IMG/VR virus record: IMGVR_UViG_3300037472_000016
Coordinates: 1 to 64,000 of that record
Direction: 5' to 3' (one strand)
Source: a virus
DNA length: 64,000 bases
Shown here one piece after another: positions 6,296-51,448 of the stretch. A program made the translations under genes and the position numbers. A model generated the notes under the pieces. It was not told the origin of the DNA, made no database searches, and was given only the letters and a program-made list of their open reading frames with translations. Every line of letters begins with the position of its first letter. Position 1 is the stretch's first letter.

Positions 6296-6335
6296 GATGT
6301 TTCCTATCTGTTAGATTCTTTGTCCTTGTAGTATC

Positions 6336-6365
6336 AGTATAGTCTGACTAGGGCAGACAGCGCAA
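6336..6365 (-). promoter_or_regulatory. leftward promoter
   Basis: -35 TTGCGC (6360-6365), 18-bp spacer, -10 TATACT (6336-6341), driving 6146-6295. Confidence 0.6.
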
Positions 6366-6379
6366 CTCCTAGAGCAACT

Positions 6380-6478
6380 TTATGCTGTGAGTTTGCTGAT
6401 AGCTGCTCGGTGCTGCCATAGGACTAGCGCATAGGCTAAGGTCAGCGGTACCATGATGAGAAAGAATTGCATTACCAT
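6380..6478 (-). CDS. 32-residue membrane peptide
   Basis: MVMQFFLIMVPLTLAYALVLWQ... is one hydrophobic helix and a basic tail. AGGA is 7 nt before the ATG. The 11-bp units CTGTGAGTTTG/CTGATAGCTGC (6385-6406) lie in its last codons, so the regulatory repeat is partly coding here. Confidence 0.55.
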   Translation of the reverse strand: MVMQFFLIMVPLTLAYALVLWQHRAAISKLTA

Positions 6479-6500
6479 GTCTGTATCCTATCTTGCATTA

Positions 6501-6614
6501 CTGGGAAATACCTGTGTGTAACGTAGACGCAGCCTGTGTATTGGCTGAGAGTCGGGTCGGGTCGGGTAGCCTGTAAGTTACCTGAGTGCTGCCTGGGCAC
6601 TGGCTGGGAGCCTC
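6501..6614 (+). repeat. ten 11-bp units (6 + 4)
   Basis: Six contiguous units start at 6501 (CTGGGAAATAC, CTGTGTGTAAC, GTAGACGCAGC, CTGTGTATTGG, CTGAGAGTCGG, GTCGGGTCGGG). A 4-nt break follows, then four more at 6571-6614 (CTGTAAGTTAC, CTGAGTGCTGC, CTGGGCACTGG, CTGGGAGCCTC). The fifth and sixth units overlap a GGGTC triplication. Confidence 0.75.
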
Positions 6615-6630
6615 TCACGCTCCCTTACCG

Positions 6631-6750
6631 CTATGCCGTTAGATAGTCCATAGCGTCTCGGTATCCCATGATACCCTTGTACTCACCACAGCGACGGCAG
6701 ATGGTGGATTCTACTGGCATAACGCAGAAGATGCAGACTTGTTGTTCCAT
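6631..6750 (-). CDS. zinc-ribbon peptide, 39 aa, paralog of 4542-4685
   Basis: MEQQVCIFCVMPVESTICRRCGEYKG... has CxxC at 6-9 and 18-21, then a short helix (YRDAMDYL). It shares this layout with the gene at 4542. The ribosome site is weak (AGAG). Unknown function. Confidence 0.65.
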   Translation of the reverse strand: MEQQVCIFCVMPVESTICRRCGEYKGIMGYRDAMDYLTA

Positions 6751-6812
6751 GATGTTACTCTTTTCTGTTAGATTCTTTTTTCTTGGCTATGTTCTTTTTT
6801 TCTTATAGCTAT

Positions 6813-6821
6813 AGCTTAGCA
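6813..6821 (-). promoter_or_regulatory. extended -10 promoter
   Basis: Minus strand TGC-TAAGCT upstream of gene 6631-6750; no clear -35. Confidence 0.45.
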
Positions 6822-7090
6822 CAGGTTTAGGGCCTCGCACTACCAAAATTGAAAAATAAAATAAAAACCTTTTCTCACTTATGGGGTGGTACCTGTAGTG
6901 TGCTCACTAATTAACTGTGAATTTGCTGTGAGTTTACTGTATGGTACAAATCAACAATATTTTCAGATTGTTCCCAAAATAGACTTAGCCAGATATCCGG
7001 CTGTCACATCTTGTCACAAATAAATATTTTTTCAGATTTTCAGAAATGTGTATTTTTCCGGGTATCAACAACATCCTCTTGACACAATAG
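6822..7090. other. gene-free AT-rich segment
   Basis: No gene is visible. It holds three 11-bp units at 6915-6947 (CTGTGAATTTG, CTGTGAGTTTA, CTGTATGGTAC) and a near-perfect palindrome AGCC-A-GATATC-C-GGCT (6987-7002). A direct repeat TGTCACA-TCT-TGTCACA and several TTTTCAGATT words are also present. Composition and repeats would suit an origin or a regulatory hub; neither is shown. Confidence 0.4.
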
Positions 7091-7281: not shown

Positions 7282-7476
7282 TTACCAATGTCCTATAGGA
7301 CACTTAGCCTTCTTAAGCGTAGTCTTCAAAGCCATAAAGCACCCACACTTCTTACATCTTGACCCAGTAAAGAAGGGACAGGTCTTACATATTTCAAGCC
7401 GGTATTCAGCCAATTCTTTTTCTGATCTAGGCTCTTTAGGATTAAACAAGTCAGTAAACTTAACATCATCACTCAT
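7282..7476 (-). CDS. phage zinc-ribbon protein (CxxC...CxxCGC), 64 aa
   Basis: Cys pairs: CKTC, then CKKCGC and KCP near the end (MALKTTLKKAKCPIGHW). This 'CxxC-(8-10)-CxxCGC-x(4)-K...CPxxxW' protein is a very common small phage zinc protein of unknown function. The Shine-Dalgarno AAAGG is 20 nt from the ATG but 9 nt from a four-codon ORF (7473-7487) whose TGA overlaps the ATG. Confidence 0.85.
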   Translation of the reverse strand: MSDDVKFTDLFNPKEPRSEKELAEYRLEICKTCPFFTGSRCKKCGCFMALKTTLKKAKCPIGHW

Positions 7477-7487
7477 ACATCAATCAT
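7473..7487 (-). CDS. possible four-codon leader ORF (MIDV)
   Basis: ATG ATT GAT GTA TGA has the well-spaced AAAGG and ends with an ATGA overlap on the zinc-ribbon start. This suggests translation of the ribbon by re-initiation. Confidence 0.35.
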   Translation of the reverse strand: MIDV

Positions 7488-7526
7488 ACACTGTTTCCTT
7501 TGACATTTATGCTGAACACTGTCAAA

Positions 7527-7535
7527 ATTATACCA
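7527..7535 (-). promoter_or_regulatory. extended -10 promoter of the zinc-ribbon gene
   Basis: Minus strand TGG-TATAAT. A TTGACA...TGTCAA inverted repeat lies between it and the gene (about 7499-7524) and may be an operator. Confidence 0.55.
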
Positions 7536-7599
7536 AAAACAGTATAGTTTTGGCATATCTGTTTATCCGTATATGTCAATAGCAACATATCAACAAGGA

Positions 7600-7960
7600 A
7601 CAGACTCCTATTGGGCACATCACCCCTTCGGCTAGTCTATTTTTCGCGGTATTGGAGGCATCGCCTCTCTTGATTATTTTCTAACAATCACTCTAGGGGA
7701 TAACACCTATCTAGCTATCCGGCTATGGGGATAGGGGCTAGTGGGCTATGGGGCTAGTGGGCTAGGGGTTTGTGGATAGCTGTTTGTGGCTATTCATTTG
7801 TGGCTATCGTTGAGTATTGTGATACCGCGTTCATTAGAGCGTTAGTGGATAGTGTTTCTCTCTCACGCGAAAACTAAGCCCGAACTTACTCTCCCGCCGA
7901 GACAATTCTCTCGAACTTGCCTACTTGTTTAACGAGTGTTTCTCCGTATATCATAAACTA
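7600..7960. repeat. gene-free switch region with GGCTA/TTTGTGGCTA repeats
   Basis: No gene is seen here. At about 7716-7815 GGCTAGTGGGCTATG-like units alternate and then pass into three TTTGTGG(C/A)TA units. This lies exactly where transcription changes from leftward to rightward. It may serve as an origin, a packaging site or a transcription barrier; none can be chosen from sequence alone. Confidence 0.5.
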
Positions 7961-7964
7961 ACTG

Positions 7965-7970
7965 TATACT
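7965..7970 (+). promoter_or_regulatory. -10 box of a leaderless rightward gene
   Basis: TATACT, six bases (TATTGT), then ATG 7977. No Shine-Dalgarno. Weak -35. Confidence 0.5.
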
Positions 7971-7976
7971 TATTGT

Positions 7977-8339
7977 ATGTTCGAAGCCAGCTTACCCGCC
8001 CTCAATCTCCTAGTCGTTCAACAGGTTTTGGGAATCGCTATCGCCTCGGCATCAGTAATAGGAATCTTGGGTGGAATGATTCGCTGGGTAATCAAGCATT
8101 ACCTTAAAGATATTAAGCACGAACTCTTGCCAAACAGCGGTAAATCAATGAAAGATCAGATAACAAGGCTCGAAAGAAGGCAAAGCGAAGAAAGAATTCT
8201 TCTGGAGAAGAACACAGAGATATTCACTAAAAAGATTGACGACAACAGAATTTCTCTGGAGTCAAAGATTGACCACATGAACGAAGAGAACATGAAGAGG
8301 TTTGACAACCTGTATCAGATCATCATCACCAAGCTCTAG
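7977..8339 (+). CDS. single-span membrane protein with coiled coil (possible holin)
   Basis: 120 residues: hydrophobic helix at about 10-38 (LLVVQQVLGIAIASASVIGILGGMIRW), then VIKHYLKDIKHELLPNSGKSMKDQITRLE, and a long charged coiled coil (70-118). The NGGxSxKDQ-like turn resembles DUF2746-type phage membrane proteins, often near lysis genes. First rightward gene. A holin role is inferred; the endolysin is 8 kb away. Confidence 0.7.
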   Translation: MFEASLPALNLLVVQQVLGIAIASASVIGILGGMIRWVIKHYLKDIKHELLPNSGKSMKDQITRLERRQSEERILLEKNTEIFTKKIDDNRISLESKIDHMNEENMKRFDNLYQIIITKL

Positions 8340-8586
8340 ATACTATATATTATATAGAAGATATCTAACTAGCTATTAGTATCACTTCTCTCTCAATTAT
8401 CAATTATACACACTTTTCAAGTGTTGTTGACCACATGAGGATAACGATTCTATAACGATTGAGTTACATGCCTAGATTGTTATGATTCTGTTACAATAGA
8501 GTAGCTAGTAGTTAAGGTTTTCTCTCTCAAACCACTTCCTTGACTACTAGCTCCATAGCTTAATAAACCTGGTATTATGTATACAT
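8340..8586. promoter_or_regulatory. TAAC operator, 14-bp stem-loop and promoter
   Basis: Two plus-strand 11-mers ATAACGATTCT/ATAACGATTGA (8441-8462) face two minus-strand ones ATAACAATCTA/GTAACAGAATC (8473-8494), giving a symmetrical operator. A stem of 14 pairs (8504-8517 with 8538-8551, one G-U) follows. Then an extended -10 TGG-TATTAT (8573-8578) puts the transcription start about 2 nt before ATG 8587. No gene in the interval. Confidence 0.6.
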
Positions 8587-8991
8587 ATGAATAATCTATC
8601 TAACAATAGAGCGAACAAGGGTTTTGGTTCTCTACCGGCCAACTTGAAGTGGAACGTTGTTAGAGGAGACACTGCTTCTATCCTAGTTCAGTTTTTAGAG
8701 AACGATGAAGAGACCTCTTATGATACAGACACATGGACATATATTTCAAGTGCCTATGACCATGAGACAGGAATCACCTACATCCTTGATACTGAAACCA
8801 TCGGGAGTTCTGTAAAGATTACAGCAGGGCCAGAGACTACTTCTCTATGGGGCACTCGGTTCTTAGATAAGGTTGCAGACCTTTCTTTTGATCTACAGGT
8901 AACGATGGACTTCGATGTTGTCTGGACTCCCATTGTCGGCAAAATAAGTGTTATAGGAAACGTTACCCTTTACGACCAGGGTAACAGTTAA
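8587..8991 (+). CDS. BppU-like Ig-fold tail/baseplate module
   Basis: 134 residues with the signature WNVVRGDTASILVQF near residue 22-36, then alternating beta strands and ...ISVIGNVTLYDQGNS. The 'RGDT..f.v.f' start of an immunoglobulin-like domain is typical of BppU N-terminal domains that attach receptor-binding proteins to the tail. It shares this layout with 11621-12001. Near-leaderless start. Confidence 0.65.
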   Translation: MNNLSNNRANKGFGSLPANLKWNVVRGDTASILVQFLENDEETSYDTDTWTYISSAYDHETGITYILDTETIGSSVKITAGPETTSLWGTRFLDKVADLSFDLQVTMDFDVVWTPIVGKISVIGNVTLYDQGNS

Positions 8992-9074
8992 GACACGCTC
9001 CCCAGTACTGTTGTTCCGAGAAGTTCTCTAGGAGAGGCAAGACTTTTCTTTGCATCTAGGGGCTTACCACTCGT

Positions 9075-14251: not shown

Positions 14252-14518
14252 ATGACAGTTCTTAAAAAATATAATTCAGTGTCTGGCTTGTGGCAACCCG
14301 TTCAGGTGGGGGTACCAGGCGAAAATTCCACGGTACCGGGGCCAGCAGGCCCAACAGGCCCAGCAGGCCCAACGGGTGCGGCAGGCCCAACGGGTGCGGC
14401 AGGCCCAACGGGTGCGGCAGGCCCAACGGGTGCGGCAGGCCCCATATATCCACTAACAGTATCCTTGTCACTTCCCACTGGCGGTAACGACGGAGACGTG
14501 TGGATGGTTTATAGCTAA
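14252..14518 (+). CDS. short collagen-like protein, 88 aa
   Basis: The N-terminus MTVLKKYNSVSGLWQPVQVGVPG matches 10755-11507. Then follow Gly-X-Y repeats with four perfect GAAGPT-type 18-bp repeats, and a short tail PTGGNDGDVWMVYS. Compared with its paralog it has lost the beta tip, and the next gene (TAATG overlap) may supply it. AAGGAA precedes the ATG. Confidence 0.7.
   Translation: MTVLKKYNSVSGLWQPVQVGVPGENSTVPGPAGPTGPAGPTGAAGPTGAAGPTGAAGPTGAAGPIYPLTVSLSLPTGGNDGDVWMVYS
14366..14437 (+). repeat. four perfect 18-bp tandem repeats
   Basis: GGCCCAACGGGTGCGGCA repeated four times without change; each encodes six collagen residues. Identity at the DNA level points to recent slippage expansion. 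Confidence 0.85.
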
Positions 14519-15789
14519 TGGCACAATTGGTAAACGTTACCGGCTTTAATGGAACACTAACCTGGAAGCCTTCGATACCTTACGTAAAAGTTGGGGGTAT
14601 ATGGAAAGTTCCAAAGTCTATATGGAGAAAGATATCAGGTGTTTGGTATTCTGGTTTTTTGCAGGGGGGGGTTGAAGATACCACCTTTAACTTCAATACA
14701 GGCACAGAAGCAAACAGTGAGGTTAGTGCTATTGCAATCCAGACAGATGGAAAAATAATTCTAGGTGGAAGCTTTACAACCTTTAACGGAACAGTAGCAA
14801 ACAGAATTGTCAGACTCAACACCGACGGAACAAGAGATACAACATTTGCCACAGGCACAGCAGCAAATTCCTATGTTGGTGCCATTGCAATCCAGACAGA
14901 TGGAAAAATAGTTATAGTTGGAAGCTTTACAGCCTTTAACGGAACAGTAGCAAACAGAATTGTCAGACTCAACACCAACGGAACAATAGATACAACATTT
15001 AACACAGGCACAGGAGCAAGCAATTTTATTATTGCTATTGCAGTTCAGACAGATGGAAAAATAGTTATAGGTGGAAGGTTTACAGCCTTTAACGGAACAC
15101 CAGCAAATGGAATTGCTAGACTCAACACCAACGGAACAATAGATACAACATTTAACACAGGCACAGGCTCAAACGATGGTGTCCAGACAATAGCCATTCA
15201 GACAGATGGAAAAATAATTCTAGGTGGAAGCTTTACAGCCTTTAACGGAACAGTAGCAAACAGAATTGTCAGACTCAACACCAACGGAACAATAGATACA
15301 ACATTTAACACAGGCACAGGATTCAGTGCTGTTGAATTCGGTGCTTTTGCTAGTGAGATTGCAATCCAGACAGATGGAAAAATAGTTGTAGCTGGAAACT
15401 TTACAACCTTTAACGGAGCAGTAGCAAACACAATTGTCAGACTCAACACCAATGGAACAAGAGATACAACATTTGCCACAAACACAGGATTAGGTTTTGG
15501 TGACTTCGGTTCTTATGCTAGTGCTATTGCAATCCAGACAGATGGAAAAATAATTCTAGGTGGAAGCTTTACAGACTTTAACGGAACACCAGCAAATGGA
15601 ATTGCTAGACTCAACACCAACGGAACAATAGACACAAACCTTGGCTTAGGAGTAAACGAAGAATTCTTTGGTATTTTTGTCATAGCCATACAAACAGATG
15701 GAAAAATAATTCTAGGTGGAAGCTTTACGGGTTTTAGCGGAATACTAGCAAATCGAATCGTTAGGGTTGGAGGAGATATAAGAACATGA
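14518..15789 (+). CDS. delta-60 repeat beta-propeller fibre protein, 423 aa
   Basis: An N-terminal segment of about 60 residues (KVGGIWKVPKSIWRKISGVWY) is followed by seven repeats of about 50-56 residues. Each carries AIQTDGKIILGGSFT.FNG...RIVRLN.DGT.DTTF. This is the 'delta-60 repeat', a beta-propeller-type repeat of bacterial surface proteins and unusual in a phage fibre. Seven blades would close one propeller. The gene overlaps both neighbours (TAATG, ATGA). Probably carbohydrate- or surface-binding. Confidence 0.8.
   Translation: MAQLVNVTGFNGTLTWKPSIPYVKVGGIWKVPKSIWRKISGVWYSGFLQGGVEDTTFNFNTGTEANSEVSAIAIQTDGKIILGGSFTTFNGTVANRIVRLNTDGTRDTTFATGTAANSYVGAIAIQTDGKIVIVGSFTAFNGTVANRIVRLNTNGTIDTTFNTGTGASNFIIAIAVQTDGKIVIGGRFTAFNGTPANGIARLNTNGTIDTTFNTGTGSNDGVQTIAIQTDGKIILGGSFTAFNGTVANRIVRLNTNGTIDTTFNTGTGFSAVEFGAFASEIAIQTDGKIVVAGNFTTFNGAVANTIVRLNTNGTRDTTFATNTGLGFGDFGSYASAIAIQTDGKIILGGSFTDFNGTPANGIARLNTNGTIDTNLGLGVNEEFFGIFVIAIQTDGKIILGGSFTGFSGILANRIVRVGGDIRT
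14729..15750 (+). repeat. DNA-level repeats of the delta-60 blades
   Basis: The word CAGACAGATGGAAAAATA recurs about every 150-170 bp, seven times. Long stretches (GGAACAGTAGCAAACAGAAT...) are identical between blades, so the array is prone to recombination. Confidence 0.8.
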
Positions 15790-16093: not shown

Positions 16094-16180
16094 TAAAATG
16101 TTTATGTAGGTGTGCAATGATTACACTTTGCAAAGCAGAATGTGCAAAGCTTGCACCAATTAGAATTGGAAGTGATTAAT
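16094..16180 (+). promoter_or_regulatory. promoter and structured leader of the endolysin gene
   Basis: Extended -10 TGG-TAAAAT (16094-16099) leaves a leader of about 75 nt. It is rich in complementary words (GGTGTGCAA against TTGCACC; TTTGCAAA), so it can fold. GGAAG is 8 nt before ATG 16181. Timing control of lysis through the leader is possible. Confidence 0.5.
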
Positions 16181-17254
16181 ATGTCTGGATGGTATCCAAA
16201 TAACTCTAGAGTCTGGGACAACGGATTCGGAGCAAGTCGTAATGGCAATACAATCAAGGGTGTTGTCATTCATCACGTAGCAGGGACCAATGGTCTTTCA
16301 TACGTTGCAAACAAAAACTCAAGAAATTCACATCCCACATACCACATTGCTACAAGCGGTGCGGTAACAGGAATAGTCAATCCTGAGCGTAGGCCATTTT
16401 CTACTGCAAATACCGTTGATCTTCAAGCTGTAACGTTTGAGATTGACAACTCTTCTGCTGGAGGAACCTGGCCGGTATCTGATGAGGCCATAGAGTCCCT
16501 CATCAATGTTATTGTATGGCACGCAAGCCACTCCCCCCGAGCAGGTAAGGGAATGGCAAGAAACATTCCTGGTCAAACACAAGAAGAGTTCTTCATTGCT
16601 TGGCACTCACAGTATGCAGCAACAGCGTGCCCAGGACCACACATTATGTCTTTGATGGACTACATTGTGTCAGAGAGCACTAAGAGGGCAGCGGGAACTC
16701 CGTCAACAGCCCCAGCCCCAGCACCAGCAGCACCAGCAGCGGCCCCCGCACAGGCAGCACCAGCCACTAGTGTTGATGCGCTTGCTAGAGAGGTTCTTGC
16801 TGGACAATGGGGAACAGGTCCTACCAGGGTGTCTAGGCTAGGAGCCGCAGGACACGATGCTAGGGCTGTTCAGGCTAGGGTCAACCAGATTCTTTCTGGA
16901 AAGGCTCCAGCCCCATCAGCACCTGCAAGACCAGCACAGAACAACTCAGTTGATGTGATTGCCAGAGAAGTTATTGATGGTAAGTGGGGTAATGGTGCAG
17001 TAAGGATTTCTAGGCTTAAAAGGGCTAGGCATGACGTTAGGGCAGTGCAAGCGGCTGTGAACGCAATCCTTGCTGGTGGTTCTCCAGCACCCGCTACTGC
17101 TCCGGCACAAAGTAACTCTGTAGATAGAGTTGCCAGAGAGGTTATCGACGGCAAGTGGGGCAATGGTCCAACAAGGGTCAGTAAGCTCGGAGCAGCAGGA
17201 TACGATGTTCGAGCAGTGCAGTCAAGAGTTAATGCAATTCTTGCCGGTAGATAA
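16181..17254 (+). CDS. lysA: endolysin: N-acetylmuramoyl-L-alanine amidase with three CW_7 repeats
   Basis: Amidase_2/PGRP domain at 1-160: GVVIHHVAG gives the first zinc His (H31/H32), with H142 and C150 (AATACPGPHIM) completing the site. An Ala/Pro linker follows (171-196). Then three Cpl-7/CW_7 cell-wall-binding repeats at about 197-238, 256-298 and 313-355 (VAREVIDGKWGNG.R...AGYDVRAVQ.RVN). The start is placed at ATG 16181 because of its ribosome site; an upstream GTG at 16142 lies in the leader. It cleaves the peptidoglycan stem peptide from muramic acid. Confidence 0.92.
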   Translation: MSGWYPNNSRVWDNGFGASRNGNTIKGVVIHHVAGTNGLSYVANKNSRNSHPTYHIATSGAVTGIVNPERRPFSTANTVDLQAVTFEIDNSSAGGTWPVSDEAIESLINVIVWHASHSPRAGKGMARNIPGQTQEEFFIAWHSQYAATACPGPHIMSLMDYIVSESTKRAAGTPSTAPAPAPAAPAAAPAQAAPATSVDALAREVLAGQWGTGPTRVSRLGAAGHDARAVQARVNQILSGKAPAPSAPARPAQNNSVDVIAREVIDGKWGNGAVRISRLKRARHDVRAVQAAVNAILAGGSPAPATAPAQSNSVDRVAREVIDGKWGNGPTRVSKLGAAGYDVRAVQSRVNAILAGR

Positions 17255-47558: not shown

Positions 47559-47762
47559 ATGGAAGAGTTAGTCAAAAAGATTATTGTTCCGGTATCTGAG
47601 ATACAACGTCTAACTGAAACAGACATTCAAGATGGTATCAAGCAGTATGTTCGATACCGAATTATTTCAGAAGACCGTAACAGAACTTCATCGTGGTCTC
47701 CGTTAGTAGAGTTTTCTTTGGATGAAGCTGGCCTAAATGTTCTAGATGGTGGTGCTCCTTGA
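47559..47762 (+). CDS. small tail protein, 67 aa
   Basis: ATG 47559 ([18 protein letters not shown]...) has GAAGG upstream; the open frame begins earlier inside the preceding gene. Contains [20 protein letters not shown], a pattern seen in short phage tail proteins before collar fibres. Its TGA overlaps the next TTG. Confidence 0.7.
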
Positions 47763-49126
47763 CCCAGGTGGACAGTAGGGCATTTTCTAATATCCAGGTG
47801 CGCCGTGGTACGGCAGAGCAGTGGATAGCCAAAAATCCCATTTTGCTTGTTGGAGAGTTTGGATTTGAAACATCCAGCAATCGTGTAAAGATTGGCGATG
47901 GGGAGACACCGTGGAACTCTATGCCGTATTTTTCCACTACTGGTGGTGGAGCAACGGGTCTTACAGGAGCTACAGGCTCTACAGGTCCACAGGGTGCCGT
48001 AGGCCCCACAGGACCAACAGGAGCCATAGGTCTTACAGGACCAACAGGAGCCACAGGCTCTACAGGTCCACAGGGTGCCGTAGGCCCCACAGGACCAACG
48101 GGAGCCATAGGTCTTACAGGACCAACAGGAGCCACAGGCTCTACAGGTCCACAGGGTGCCGTAGGCCCCACAGGACCAACGGGAGCCATAGGGCTAACGG
48201 GAGTCGCAGGCCCAACTGGTCCAACAGGAGCAGACTCCACGGTACAAGGTCCAACAGGCCCAGAAGGAAGCATAGGGCTAACAGGACAGCAAGGTTCTAC
48301 GGGAGCCACAGGACCAACGGGGCCTTCATTTGTTGTAGAATCGGCAACAACAACAGATTCAGGCATTGTTAAGCTTGCCACTGCTGAGGAAACACTGGCA
48401 GTTGCAGATGGTAGCTTAGCAGTTACTCCACTTTCTCTTGCTGGTTTTTTGCCTGCTGGAATGGTTTCTCCCTTTGCTGGCAGCGCGGCACCAGCGGGCT
48501 GGATGTTTTGCGACGGGCAGGCTGTTTCACGCACTGTGTTTGCAGTCTTGTTTAATTCCATCGGCACTCAATACGGCGGAGGTGACGGCTCAACCACCTT
48601 CAACCTTCCTGACATGCGGGGCCGCGCGGTCGTCGGACGCGATGCGGGCCAGTCGGAGTTTGACTCGCTCGACCAAGCGGGCGGCGCTAAGACTCATTCG
48701 CTGAGCACGATAGAGACGCCCGCTCACAGTCACACTGTGAGCGCGACGACAAGCTCGGACTCGCATACCCACACCTTCAGCGCGACGACAAGCTCAGACT
48801 CGCACAATCACACCTTCAGCGGCACGACTGACAATCATGACATTCGCGCTGGGTTCTCAAGCGCTGACGGCAGTTCAGGGTCAGGTCGAATAAGAGCAGG
48901 GTTCGAGACGAACGGGCGATACACGCAAAGTCTCTCAGGCGGTGATCATTCGCACCCTTTCAGCGGCACAACAGCGTCAGACTCGCACACGCACACAGTC
49001 AGCGGCACAACAGCGTCAGACTCGCACACGCACACAGTCAGCGGCACAACGAGCACAACGCCGACAGCTGCCGCGCACAATAATCTTCAACCGTACCGAG
49101 TGCTCAACTTCATCATCAAAACCTAA
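47759..49126 (+). CDS. collagen/collar tail fibre, 455 aa
   Basis: TTG start. Mtd-N domain ([26 protein letters not shown]...[15 protein letters not shown]) at 12-60. Collagen-type repeats follow (62-190), including three 27-residue repeats. A phage tail-collar domain is at about 235-310 ([19 protein letters not shown]..., [16 protein letters not shown]). His-rich SDSHTHT repeats (about 320-440) likely bind metal as in trimeric fibre stems. From about 48480 the DNA is G+C-rich, so the tip looks transferred. Confidence 0.85.
47950..48200 (+). repeat. three 81-bp collagen repeats
   Basis: Units encoding [16 protein letters not shown]... are nearly identical in DNA (single-base differences such as ACAGGA/ACGGGA). 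Copy number may vary between isolates. Confidence 0.8.
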
Positions 49127-49375: not shown

Positions 49376-51448
49376 ATGGCTCCAATTTCTTCCAGCATCG
49401 GAAGCATGTTCTTAGGCACCACCCCTGTTAGCCTTGCCTATCTTGGTGCTGTTCCTGTCCTAACGAACACCCAACCCCCTGCCAACCCGATCACCATTAC
49501 TCCCTCCAACTCGCTAGAGTCAATGGCGGTGCAACACGTAAGCAACTTCCGCACCTGGCTTGGTGGAGGACTGCAAGGATTTATTGGAGAGTTTGGGGTA
49601 CCTAACGACCGTCCTGTTTCTGAGCAAGACCAGTGGAATACCATGCAGGACAAAATGCTTCACAAGCTTAACGCTGACAAAATTGGGTGGACGTTTTGGG
49701 CTACCGGCCACTTGTGGGGCAACGGGTACAACGTTAGTTATTACGAAAACAACGGCAACCCAGGAGGAACTTGGTCACTAGAAGATAGTGCCGCGACAAT
49801 GGAAACGCACTACAACGACCCTGTACCGTTTACGGGTGGTAACTATGCAGGACACGAGTTCTTCAATGGATCAACGGCTCCTGCACTTGCCGACTGGCAG
49901 TTCCACAAGGGCCGCGGCATGAACTTAGCCCGCTATCCAATTGGGCCAGCATTTATTTACCCGACAGCAAACGCACCGTTGAACACAGCAAACTTGACGC
50001 ACATTCTTGACACGTTAAACCGCGCGCAAACTGCGGGTATAACTGTGATGCTTGACGTTCTCCACCCTGGTAGTGGTAACGATTACGCGAGAATGTTTGG
50101 GTTGCCCCTAACAAACCCCACTGCTCTTGCACACTATCAAGACTACATTACTCGCTTGCACGCGGCAGTTGGCGATCACCCTGCTCTGTGGGGCTACGAC
50201 ATTGCTAATGAGCCAAATGGCGTGACCCCTGCCCAATGGGAGACAATTAGTCAAACCTTGTACACATGGTACAGAACAACTCTCGGCTGGACAGGAAACA
50301 TTGTCATTCCTGCCGGTTCGTTTTCCGGTGCCCATTCACTGAACTCCCTTCATCCGAACGGGCCGTGGATTCAAACAAGCGGATACGACGCAAACCTGTA
50401 CTACACAGCCCACTACTACCCAAACCGTATTGGACAGTTTGGAAGTTACGATGGAACATTCAACAATCCAGACGCAACTCAGGCAAGCTTTAATGCCAAC
50501 GTGACGAGTGCTACCACTGCTGGCTTTACAGGTGGAGCGTTTACCTACACACCGCGCACCACGGTAGCACCGTCTACACCTACAGCGCCTACCCTTACGT
50601 CGAAAACACATTCGCAAGTGGTGTTAGGTTGGACGGCAGTGGCTGGGGCTATCGGTTATGTCGTGTACCGTAGTGGGAATAGAATTTTAGATACCGCTCA
50701 AACGTCAGCTACAATTACAGGCCTAACTCCAGAAACGGCATACCTGTTTTCTATTCGAGCATATAACGCTTCTTGGAATTTGTCAGCCAGTTCACCAAAC
50801 CTGTCGGTCACAACAAATGTTGCCCCTGTTTCATCTGGCAATGTTGTGTTCGATGCGGTATCAAGCAGGACAACAAGTTTTGCCAACAACTACACGTTCA
50901 CGCATACGGCATCCGGCGCAGATAGATATGCCCTGGTGTTTGTTGCCTTCCGAACTAACTCAATCACAGGCATTACCTATGGTGGGGCACCGATGACGCT
51001 GTTGCAGACAATCGTGAACACAAACGTTTCTGGTGGCCAAATTTGGGGCATTGCCGCACCAGCAACAGGCACGCAAACAGTTGCAGTATCTTTGAGCGGT
51101 TTCGTGCTAAACAATGCGGCGGCGCTGTCTTTTACCGGGGTAAATCAGACGGCAAGTGTTGATGCTGTCGCTGGAATTCCTGGAGGCTTTTCAGCAACCT
51201 CATCTACGCCGATTACGACCACAGTAAACAACGCACACATTGTTCACGCCTTTATGTCAAAAGAGAACAGAGTTCTCGATACAACCTCTGGGACAGAGCG
51301 CGTGGACATTGGAAACCCAGATGCCAACCTGGGTTCACTTGCCGTAGCTGACCTTGTTAGGGTCACGGCGGGTACTGGCTCCGTGGCTTGGACTGCGGAT
51401 ATCTCAGACAATTTTAGTACCATCGCGGTAGCGCTCCGACCAGTATAG
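49376..51448 (+). CDS. GH5-like glycosidase with Fn3 domain, barrel order permuted, 690 aa
   Basis: An N-terminal anchor segment (1-55) is followed by cellulase-like motifs in an unusual order. GFIGEFGVPND (nucleophile E72) and GWTFWATGHLWG (104-115) come first. Then GMNLARYP (181-188), VMLDVLHPG (224-232), WGYDIANEPNG (acid/base E279) and YYTAHYYP (H346). In ordinary GH5 enzymes the GEFG and WTFW motifs come last. An Fn3 domain (about 402-482) and a C-terminal beta domain (490-690) follow. Both catalytic Glu are present, so it may cut a host surface glycan. Confidence 0.8.
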   Translation: MAPISSSIGSMFLGTTPVSLAYLGAVPVLTNTQPPANPITITPSNSLESMAVQHVSNFRTWLGGGLQGFIGEFGVPNDRPVSEQDQWNTMQDKMLHKLNADKIGWTFWATGHLWGNGYNVSYYENNGNPGGTWSLEDSAATMETHYNDPVPFTGGNYAGHEFFNGSTAPALADWQFHKGRGMNLARYPIGPAFIYPTANAPLNTANLTHILDTLNRAQTAGITVMLDVLHPGSGNDYARMFGLPLTNPTALAHYQDYITRLHAAVGDHPALWGYDIANEPNGVTPAQWETISQTLYTWYRTTLGWTGNIVIPAGSFSGAHSLNSLHPNGPWIQTSGYDANLYYTAHYYPNRIGQFGSYDGTFNNPDATQASFNANVTSATTAGFTGGAFTYTPRTTVAPSTPTAPTLTSKTHSQVVLGWTAVAGAIGYVVYRSGNRILDTAQTSATITGLTPETAYLFSIRAYNASWNLSASSPNLSVTTNVAPVSSGNVVFDAVSSRTTSFANNYTFTHTASGADRYALVFVAFRTNSITGITYGGAPMTLLQTIVNTNVSGGQIWGIAAPATGTQTVAVSLSGFVLNNAAALSFTGVNQTASVDAVAGIPGGFSATSSTPITTTVNNAHIVHAFMSKENRVLDTTSGTERVDIGNPDANLGSLAVADLVRVTAGTGSVAWTADISDNFSTIAVALRPV

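Follow-up and report, generated by a model that had tools for sequence, protein, structure and literature searches.

A glycosidase domain of family GH5, encoded in a phage tail gene, was found to be a circularly permuted variant rather than an ordinary family member, as judged from its sequence and predicted structure. The gene lies in the window, which is the whole stretch of 64,000 nucleotides of a metagenomic virus record that was analyzed. It is one uninterrupted frame of 690 amino acids, with exactly the bounds given in the sequence-only reading, an earlier interpretation of the same letters. That reading had proposed a circularly permuted GH5 domain that retains the two catalytic glutamates, in a tail gene, and the proposal is borne out by the sequence, a confident AlphaFold2 (AF2) model and relatives with the same order. 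The best explanation for the whole, which we hold to be fairly probable, is a tail-associated retaining endo-glycosidase with a permuted GH5 barrel that was captured by an actinophage and would cut a polymer of the host envelope. The features of the gene are collected in Table 1.

Table 1. Features of the permuted GH5 tail gene (res, residues of the 690-amino acid protein)
Feature	Position in window	Strand	Basis
Tail-module ORF: permuted GH5 domain, Fn3 and minor-tail C-terminal domain	49376..51448	+	ORF list, Pfam, PHROG
N-terminal segment, res 1-40, ISSSIGSMFLGTTPVSLAYLG...	49376..49495	+	Sequence; no family match
Helix alpha6, res 47-62, opens the permuted barrel	49514..49561	+	AF2 model; aligns with RBcel1 from residue 216 on
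Strand beta7 with GEFG; E72, catalytic nucleophile (RBcel1 E245)	49574..49594	+	Alignment, AF2; E invariant in 70/70 normal-order rows
Strand beta8 (WTFW); W108, conserved active-site Trp	49685..49699	+	AF2, alignment
beta8-alpha8 loop, alpha8 and junction fusing the native C- and N-termini	49700..49831	+	Low-confidence loop in AF2 model; doubled-template alignment
Strands beta1 to beta6, res 153-347	49832..50416	+	Pfam Cellulase 17-228, RBcel1 match, AF2
R186, conserved Arg on strand 2; next comes PAFIY in place of the WERxQ of relatives	49931..49933	+	Alignment
Six-residue insert LHPGSG, res 229-234, end of strand 3	50060..50077	+	Alignment
N278-E279, catalytic acid/base	50207..50212	+	E279 aligns with the site mutated in RBcel1 E135A/E135Q
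H346 and Y348 (HxY, strand 6); Y348 aligns with RBcel1 Y201	50411..50419	+	Alignment
Helix past beta6, res 368-381, end of permuted domain	50477..50518	+	AF2; matches the '..SYAEEVADAQNRGY' end of cellular members
Fibronectin type III domain, res 400-469	50573..50782	+	Pfam fn3, E 6.3e-08
C-terminal domain, res 489-690, common to mycobacteriophage minor tail proteins	50840..51445	+	PHROG 2106, E 2.1e-14

The motif positions of the sequence-only reading were confirmed (GEFG at 71, with E72; WTFW at 105-108; ARYP at 185; DVLHPG at 227; NEPNG at 278, with E279; HYYP at 346), as was an Fn3 domain following the glycosidase domain. DVLHPG, which had been counted among the GH5 motifs, differs from the motif of normal GH5 and represents an insertion peculiar to the window protein. 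Instead of the GH5 strand order beta1 to beta8, the window protein has beta7 and beta8 followed by beta1 to beta6. The Pfam Cellulase family (PF00150) matched the protein in two stretches (E 1.9e-19; 70.7 bits against a cutoff of 23.5) whose coordinates are swapped: residues 56-111 correspond to profile positions 219-269 and residues 164-383 to positions 17-228. RBcel1 (PDB 6zz3/4ee9), the best match among solved structures, was likewise matched twice, with residues 151-294 aligned to chain positions 13-150 and residues 45-127 to positions 216-294. When the halves were searched separately against the solved structures, E-values of about 1e-8 for the strand 1-6 part and 4.8e-9 for the N-terminal part were obtained; therefore, the swapped match is not due to chance. 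Weak PDB matches to botulinum neurotoxin (E 0.07-0.28) were dismissed as chance.

When the window sequence, left unaltered, was aligned to a doubled template, one continuous alignment resulted that runs through the end and the start of the template. Doubling raised the score 1.77-fold for RBcel1, 1.69-fold for L028, 1.70-fold for L098, 1.48-fold for L002 and 1.14-fold for L062; for normal-order control enzymes, the gain was 1.00-1.01. Strands 7 and 8 have thus moved to the N-terminus, as the sequence-only reading had it, but the moved piece begins earlier than stated there: its first element is helix 6, which precedes strand 7.

The structure of residues 41-390 was predicted with AlphaFold2 from 71 aligned rows (pTM 0.81, mean pLDDT 78). 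The elements of the model follow one another as alpha6, beta7, alpha7, beta8, a loop, beta1 to beta6 and a final helix; the domain is predicted to be a single compact eight-stranded barrel with its strands in a non-normal order, in agreement with the sequence-only reading. A second permuted viral protein, L097, was modeled with a pTM of 0.85 and the same strand order. The alignments used for prediction (A8, A9) were composed of permuted rows and C parts. In a MAFFT alignment that combined N-part with C-part fragments (A7), the N parts were misplaced, and this alignment was kept out of structure prediction. In Foldseek searches, which keep sequence order, RBcel1 and XacCel5A were the top matches, with 216-225 of about 320 columns aligned for the window model; with the L097 model, 245-252 columns were aligned for most top matches. 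Structural alignment to GH5 had been named in the earlier reading as a check; the order-restrained run spans about two-thirds of normal GH5 barrels, which is what a permutation would give if the remainder sits at the opposite end of the chain.

Homologs with the same order exist among viruses and in Actinomycetota. Besides the window, eight viral contigs carry the permutation at the same cut point, at approximately 25-70% identity (L008, L096, L097, L152, L153, L155, L163 and L167). These were found by alignment-based scans alone; single-protein scans of viral contigs and of phage and plasmid records returned no permuted relative. Several of the contigs have features of their own. In L163 (viral contig 3300031449_000138, 4845-8742), the permuted GH5 is split by a single in-frame TAG immediately ahead of the Trp of strand 8, for which a nonsense mutation, a sequencing error and amber recoding are all possible. 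In L008, a domain of about 170 residues is inserted after the NEP motif (6334-6860 and 7343-9007 were noted), and the next ORF has a second, weaker Cellulase match. The normal-order proteins L004, L009 and L011 also carry an insert in the loop after NEP. An apparent loss of the invariant P280 in L008 was an artefact of cutting its insert from the alignment row. L152 (511-3855) holds a stand-alone permuted GH5, immediately upstream of a portal-like gene, on a contig with apparent glycosyltransferases and a methyltransferase, all three assignments made by reading only.

A profile of four permuted phage domains was spanned over its whole length at 12 loci in 9 of 396 Actinomycetota genomes. Nine of the proteins were read, and two more again show the N part ahead of the C part. 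This search overturned the result of a first genome scan, by which the permutation seemed restricted to phages. That scan, made with alignment A4, had yielded normal-order proteins alone; its patterns favored YDI-NEP and overlooked the YGLMNEP/YDLMNEP type. In 299 Pseudomonadota, 198 Bacteroidota and 149 Planctomycetota genomes (646), searched with a profile of this type, all matches started near strand 1 and no permuted match was found at 1e-40, a threshold that a very diverged permuted protein could escape. Most of the nine cellular proteins have a Sec- or Tat-like N-terminus or a membrane anchor, and most copies examined look secreted on these sequence features; the nine stop within a few residues of the helix past strand 6 (the '...SYAEEVADAQNRGY' stop). 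In L142 and L150, the permuted gene lies amid genes for Wzz, a Wzc-type ATPase and a Wzy/O-antigen ligase, and one or the other also has an LMW phosphatase, a Wzx-type flippase, a sugar transferase and glycosyltransferases. In L144, it comes after a cellulose-synthase-like GT2, and a MurJ-type flippase (L146) and a GT4 glycosyltransferase (L148) lie near it elsewhere. No exopolysaccharide-type neighbors were listed for L141 and L143 in the neighbor scan, which covered these seven loci. The sequence-only reading had suggested a new class of surface depolymerase. The permuted domain is not a phage invention, since it is also found in secreted proteins of Actinomycetota, and it is therefore preferable to regard the phage protein as a captured variant and not as a new class of depolymerase.

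A permuted layout would also be left by truncating a tandem pair of GH5 domains, and phage proteins with tandem pairs, each domain in normal order, do exist (L100, L159, L169, L170 and L177; L169 was scored as permuted by a script). Under such an account there would be no permutation of one barrel, and the window protein would hold truncated remnants that complete each other between chains by domain swapping or not at all. We consider this very improbable. The two pieces sum to exactly one eight-strand barrel with no overlap, about 20 proteins show the whole layout in conserved form, most cellular members have a signal-type N-terminus and no other domain, and AF2 gives one compact barrel in two members, the window protein and L097. 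Scrambling of the order by an assembly or binning artefact is conceivable in a metagenomic contig, and the source is a metagenomic virus record of 95 kb. The uninterrupted frame speaks against it, and the independent occurrences of the same cut, in the eight other viral contigs and in Actinomycetota genomes, already refute it and leave it practically no probability. One of the cellular genes is on a 4.38-Mb contig; therefore, at least that permuted gene is chromosomal and not part of a stray phage contig.

A different question is whether the permuted barrel of the window is still an enzyme. E72 and E279, at the ends of strands 7 and 4, sit in fully conserved columns. Among 70 normal-order rows, E72, E279, H346, Y348 and R186 correspond to invariant columns, and W108 and N278 to columns conserved at 96% and 99%. 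Of the six further GH5 active-site residues, the window protein retains five at their aligned positions: R186 on strand 2, N278 on strand 4, H346 and Y348 on strand 6 and W108 on strand 8. The sixth, the strand-3 His, is present in 100% of relatives and is N235 in the window protein, beside the LHPGSG insert. The WERxQ motif, found in at least 96% of relatives, is also lost. The other three permuted phage proteins compared retain WERxQ, the strand-3 His and the remaining active-site residues, and the window copy is the most diverged permuted member, with a branch length of 2.2. These losses, the adjacent insert and the long branch would all fit a domain derived from a permuted GH5 that has given up catalysis and now serves as a carbohydrate-binding tail receptor. 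We regard this as unlikely, though it deserves some weight, because both glutamates and the five residues above have survived while the sequence elsewhere diverged strongly, a pattern that points to selection for catalysis. The lost His may be replaced by H230, within the insert. Without WERxQ and the aligned His, activity is likely but not assured; by its conserved residues, the window copy is probably still catalytic, with an uncertain specificity.

In phylogenetic trees, all of which were quick searches with long branches, the permuted proteins all lie in a single region, away from most normal GH5. Three normal-order proteins nest among them: L062 (Mycobacterium deserti), the phage protein L098 and L077. 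L098 is the sister of the permuted L153 (SH-aLRT 99). Strict monophyly of the permuted proteins was not rejected with few rows (p-AU 0.234) and was borderline in another test (p-AU 0.059), but it was rejected in larger sets, both without (p-AU 0.006) and with (p-AU 0.020) the window protein. Repeated permutation at one cut point and reversal are both possible. Tandem duplication followed by truncation is the likely route of origin, and the tandem GH5 pairs in phages indicate that the duplication step of this classical route does occur.

The permuted gene sits between a collar/collagen tail gene and helicase-primase genes. Its position and the PHROG 2106 C-terminus place the enzymatic domain on a tail protein within the tail module, and tblastn matches of the 690-amino acid protein in the Mycobacterium phages Saroj and Ritam007 support the C-terminal tail domain. 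The tail gene directly upstream (47759-49126) has Mtd_N, collagen-like GPTGATG repeats and a Collar domain, and its local GC of 0.54 is the highest in the window. The portal is about 46% identical to that of Streptomyces phages of Stanwilliamsviridae, in which the head, tail and replication genes also follow one another in a similar order. An Amidase_2 endolysin with three CW_7 repeats (16142-17254) points to a Gram-positive host. Between the early genes and the endolysin lies a gene with seven DUF5122 beta-propeller repeats (14518-15789). Portal, endolysin and tail homology together make an actinobacterial host likely, in keeping with the taxa in which the permuted enzyme occurs.

The mechanism that we propose is as follows. 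In the permuted chain, alpha6-beta7-alpha7-beta8-alpha8 precedes beta1 to beta6, with the native termini fused and the new termini in the beta6-alpha6 connection. An actinophage would have captured a secreted-type permuted domain from Actinomycetota, the direction from cell to phage being the one we infer, and mounted it between a short tail-attachment peptide, which residues 1-40 probably provide, and the Fn3 and minor-tail domains. With both new termini located on the catalytic face, the neighboring tail domains would attach beside the substrate cleft and not on the opposite face of the barrel, and this placement may be what the phage gains. During adsorption, the enzyme may cleave a beta-1,4-glucan-like polymer of the host envelope, cellulose-related or another exopolysaccharide (EPS), by the usual double-displacement mechanism. 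Homology and gene neighborhood point to such a substrate, and use as a tail depolymerase for host EPS is suggested on the same kind of evidence.

RBcel1 (PDB 4ee9, 6zz3), Pseudomonas stutzeri Cel5A (4lx4) and XacCel5A (4w7u) share the fold and the catalytic residues with the window domain, and RBcel1 and its relatives are the best sequence and structure matches of both halves. In contrast to the window copy, these solved enzymes, which we take to be members of subfamily GH5_5, have the normal strand order, are not phage tail proteins and contain both WERxQ and the strand-3 HN. GH5 domains in normal order are found in phages (Xanthomonas phage LucasX, Erwinia phage S6 and the IMG/VR protein L098), several of them as parts of tail proteins, such as L098, in which Mtd_N and a PHROG tail domain are present. 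Where the order of phage GH5 could be checked, in L004 and L098, it was normal, and no permuted GH5 was seen in annotated phage records. The record behind L002 (MT835628.1, 'Bacteriophage sp.', 24 kb, human faeces) has two GH5 places and a lipoprotein-like neighbor gene and resembles a piece of Bacteroidota chromosome more than it does a phage. The cellulase of Erwinia phage S6 has been reported to degrade EPS cellulose, which is a precedent for a phage cellulase that clears EPS (PMC12540986).

Natural permutation or a permuted layout has been reported for (beta/alpha)8 glycosidases, in GH70 relative to GH13 and in MalS of GH13_19 (PMC9732880; PMC10223318). Unlike the window domain, which belongs to GH5, these are alpha-glucan-active families unrelated to GH5, and their cut points lie elsewhere. 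No report of a natural GH5 permutation was found in titles and abstracts of the open-access literature, a search that most subscription papers fall outside. GH5, whose strand order is taken to be fixed, counts among the biggest and most thoroughly studied families of glycosidases. We tentatively suggest, and hold it somewhat doubtful as a whole, that the permuted proteins form an unreported GH5 clade shared by Actinomycetota EPS loci and phages, in which the order changed more than once and termini on the catalytic face present the active site beside the tail. A naturally permuted GH5 clade would give a clean test case for the evolutionary re-cutting of barrels. Ordinary domain annotation catches part of such proteins: the label given by Pfam covers strands 1-6, and they match no named family in NCBIfam. 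The adjacency of the cellular genes to EPS genes and the occurrence in actinophage tails link an enzyme of the host coat to a phage tool against that coat, a link that can be tested for actinobacterial phages.
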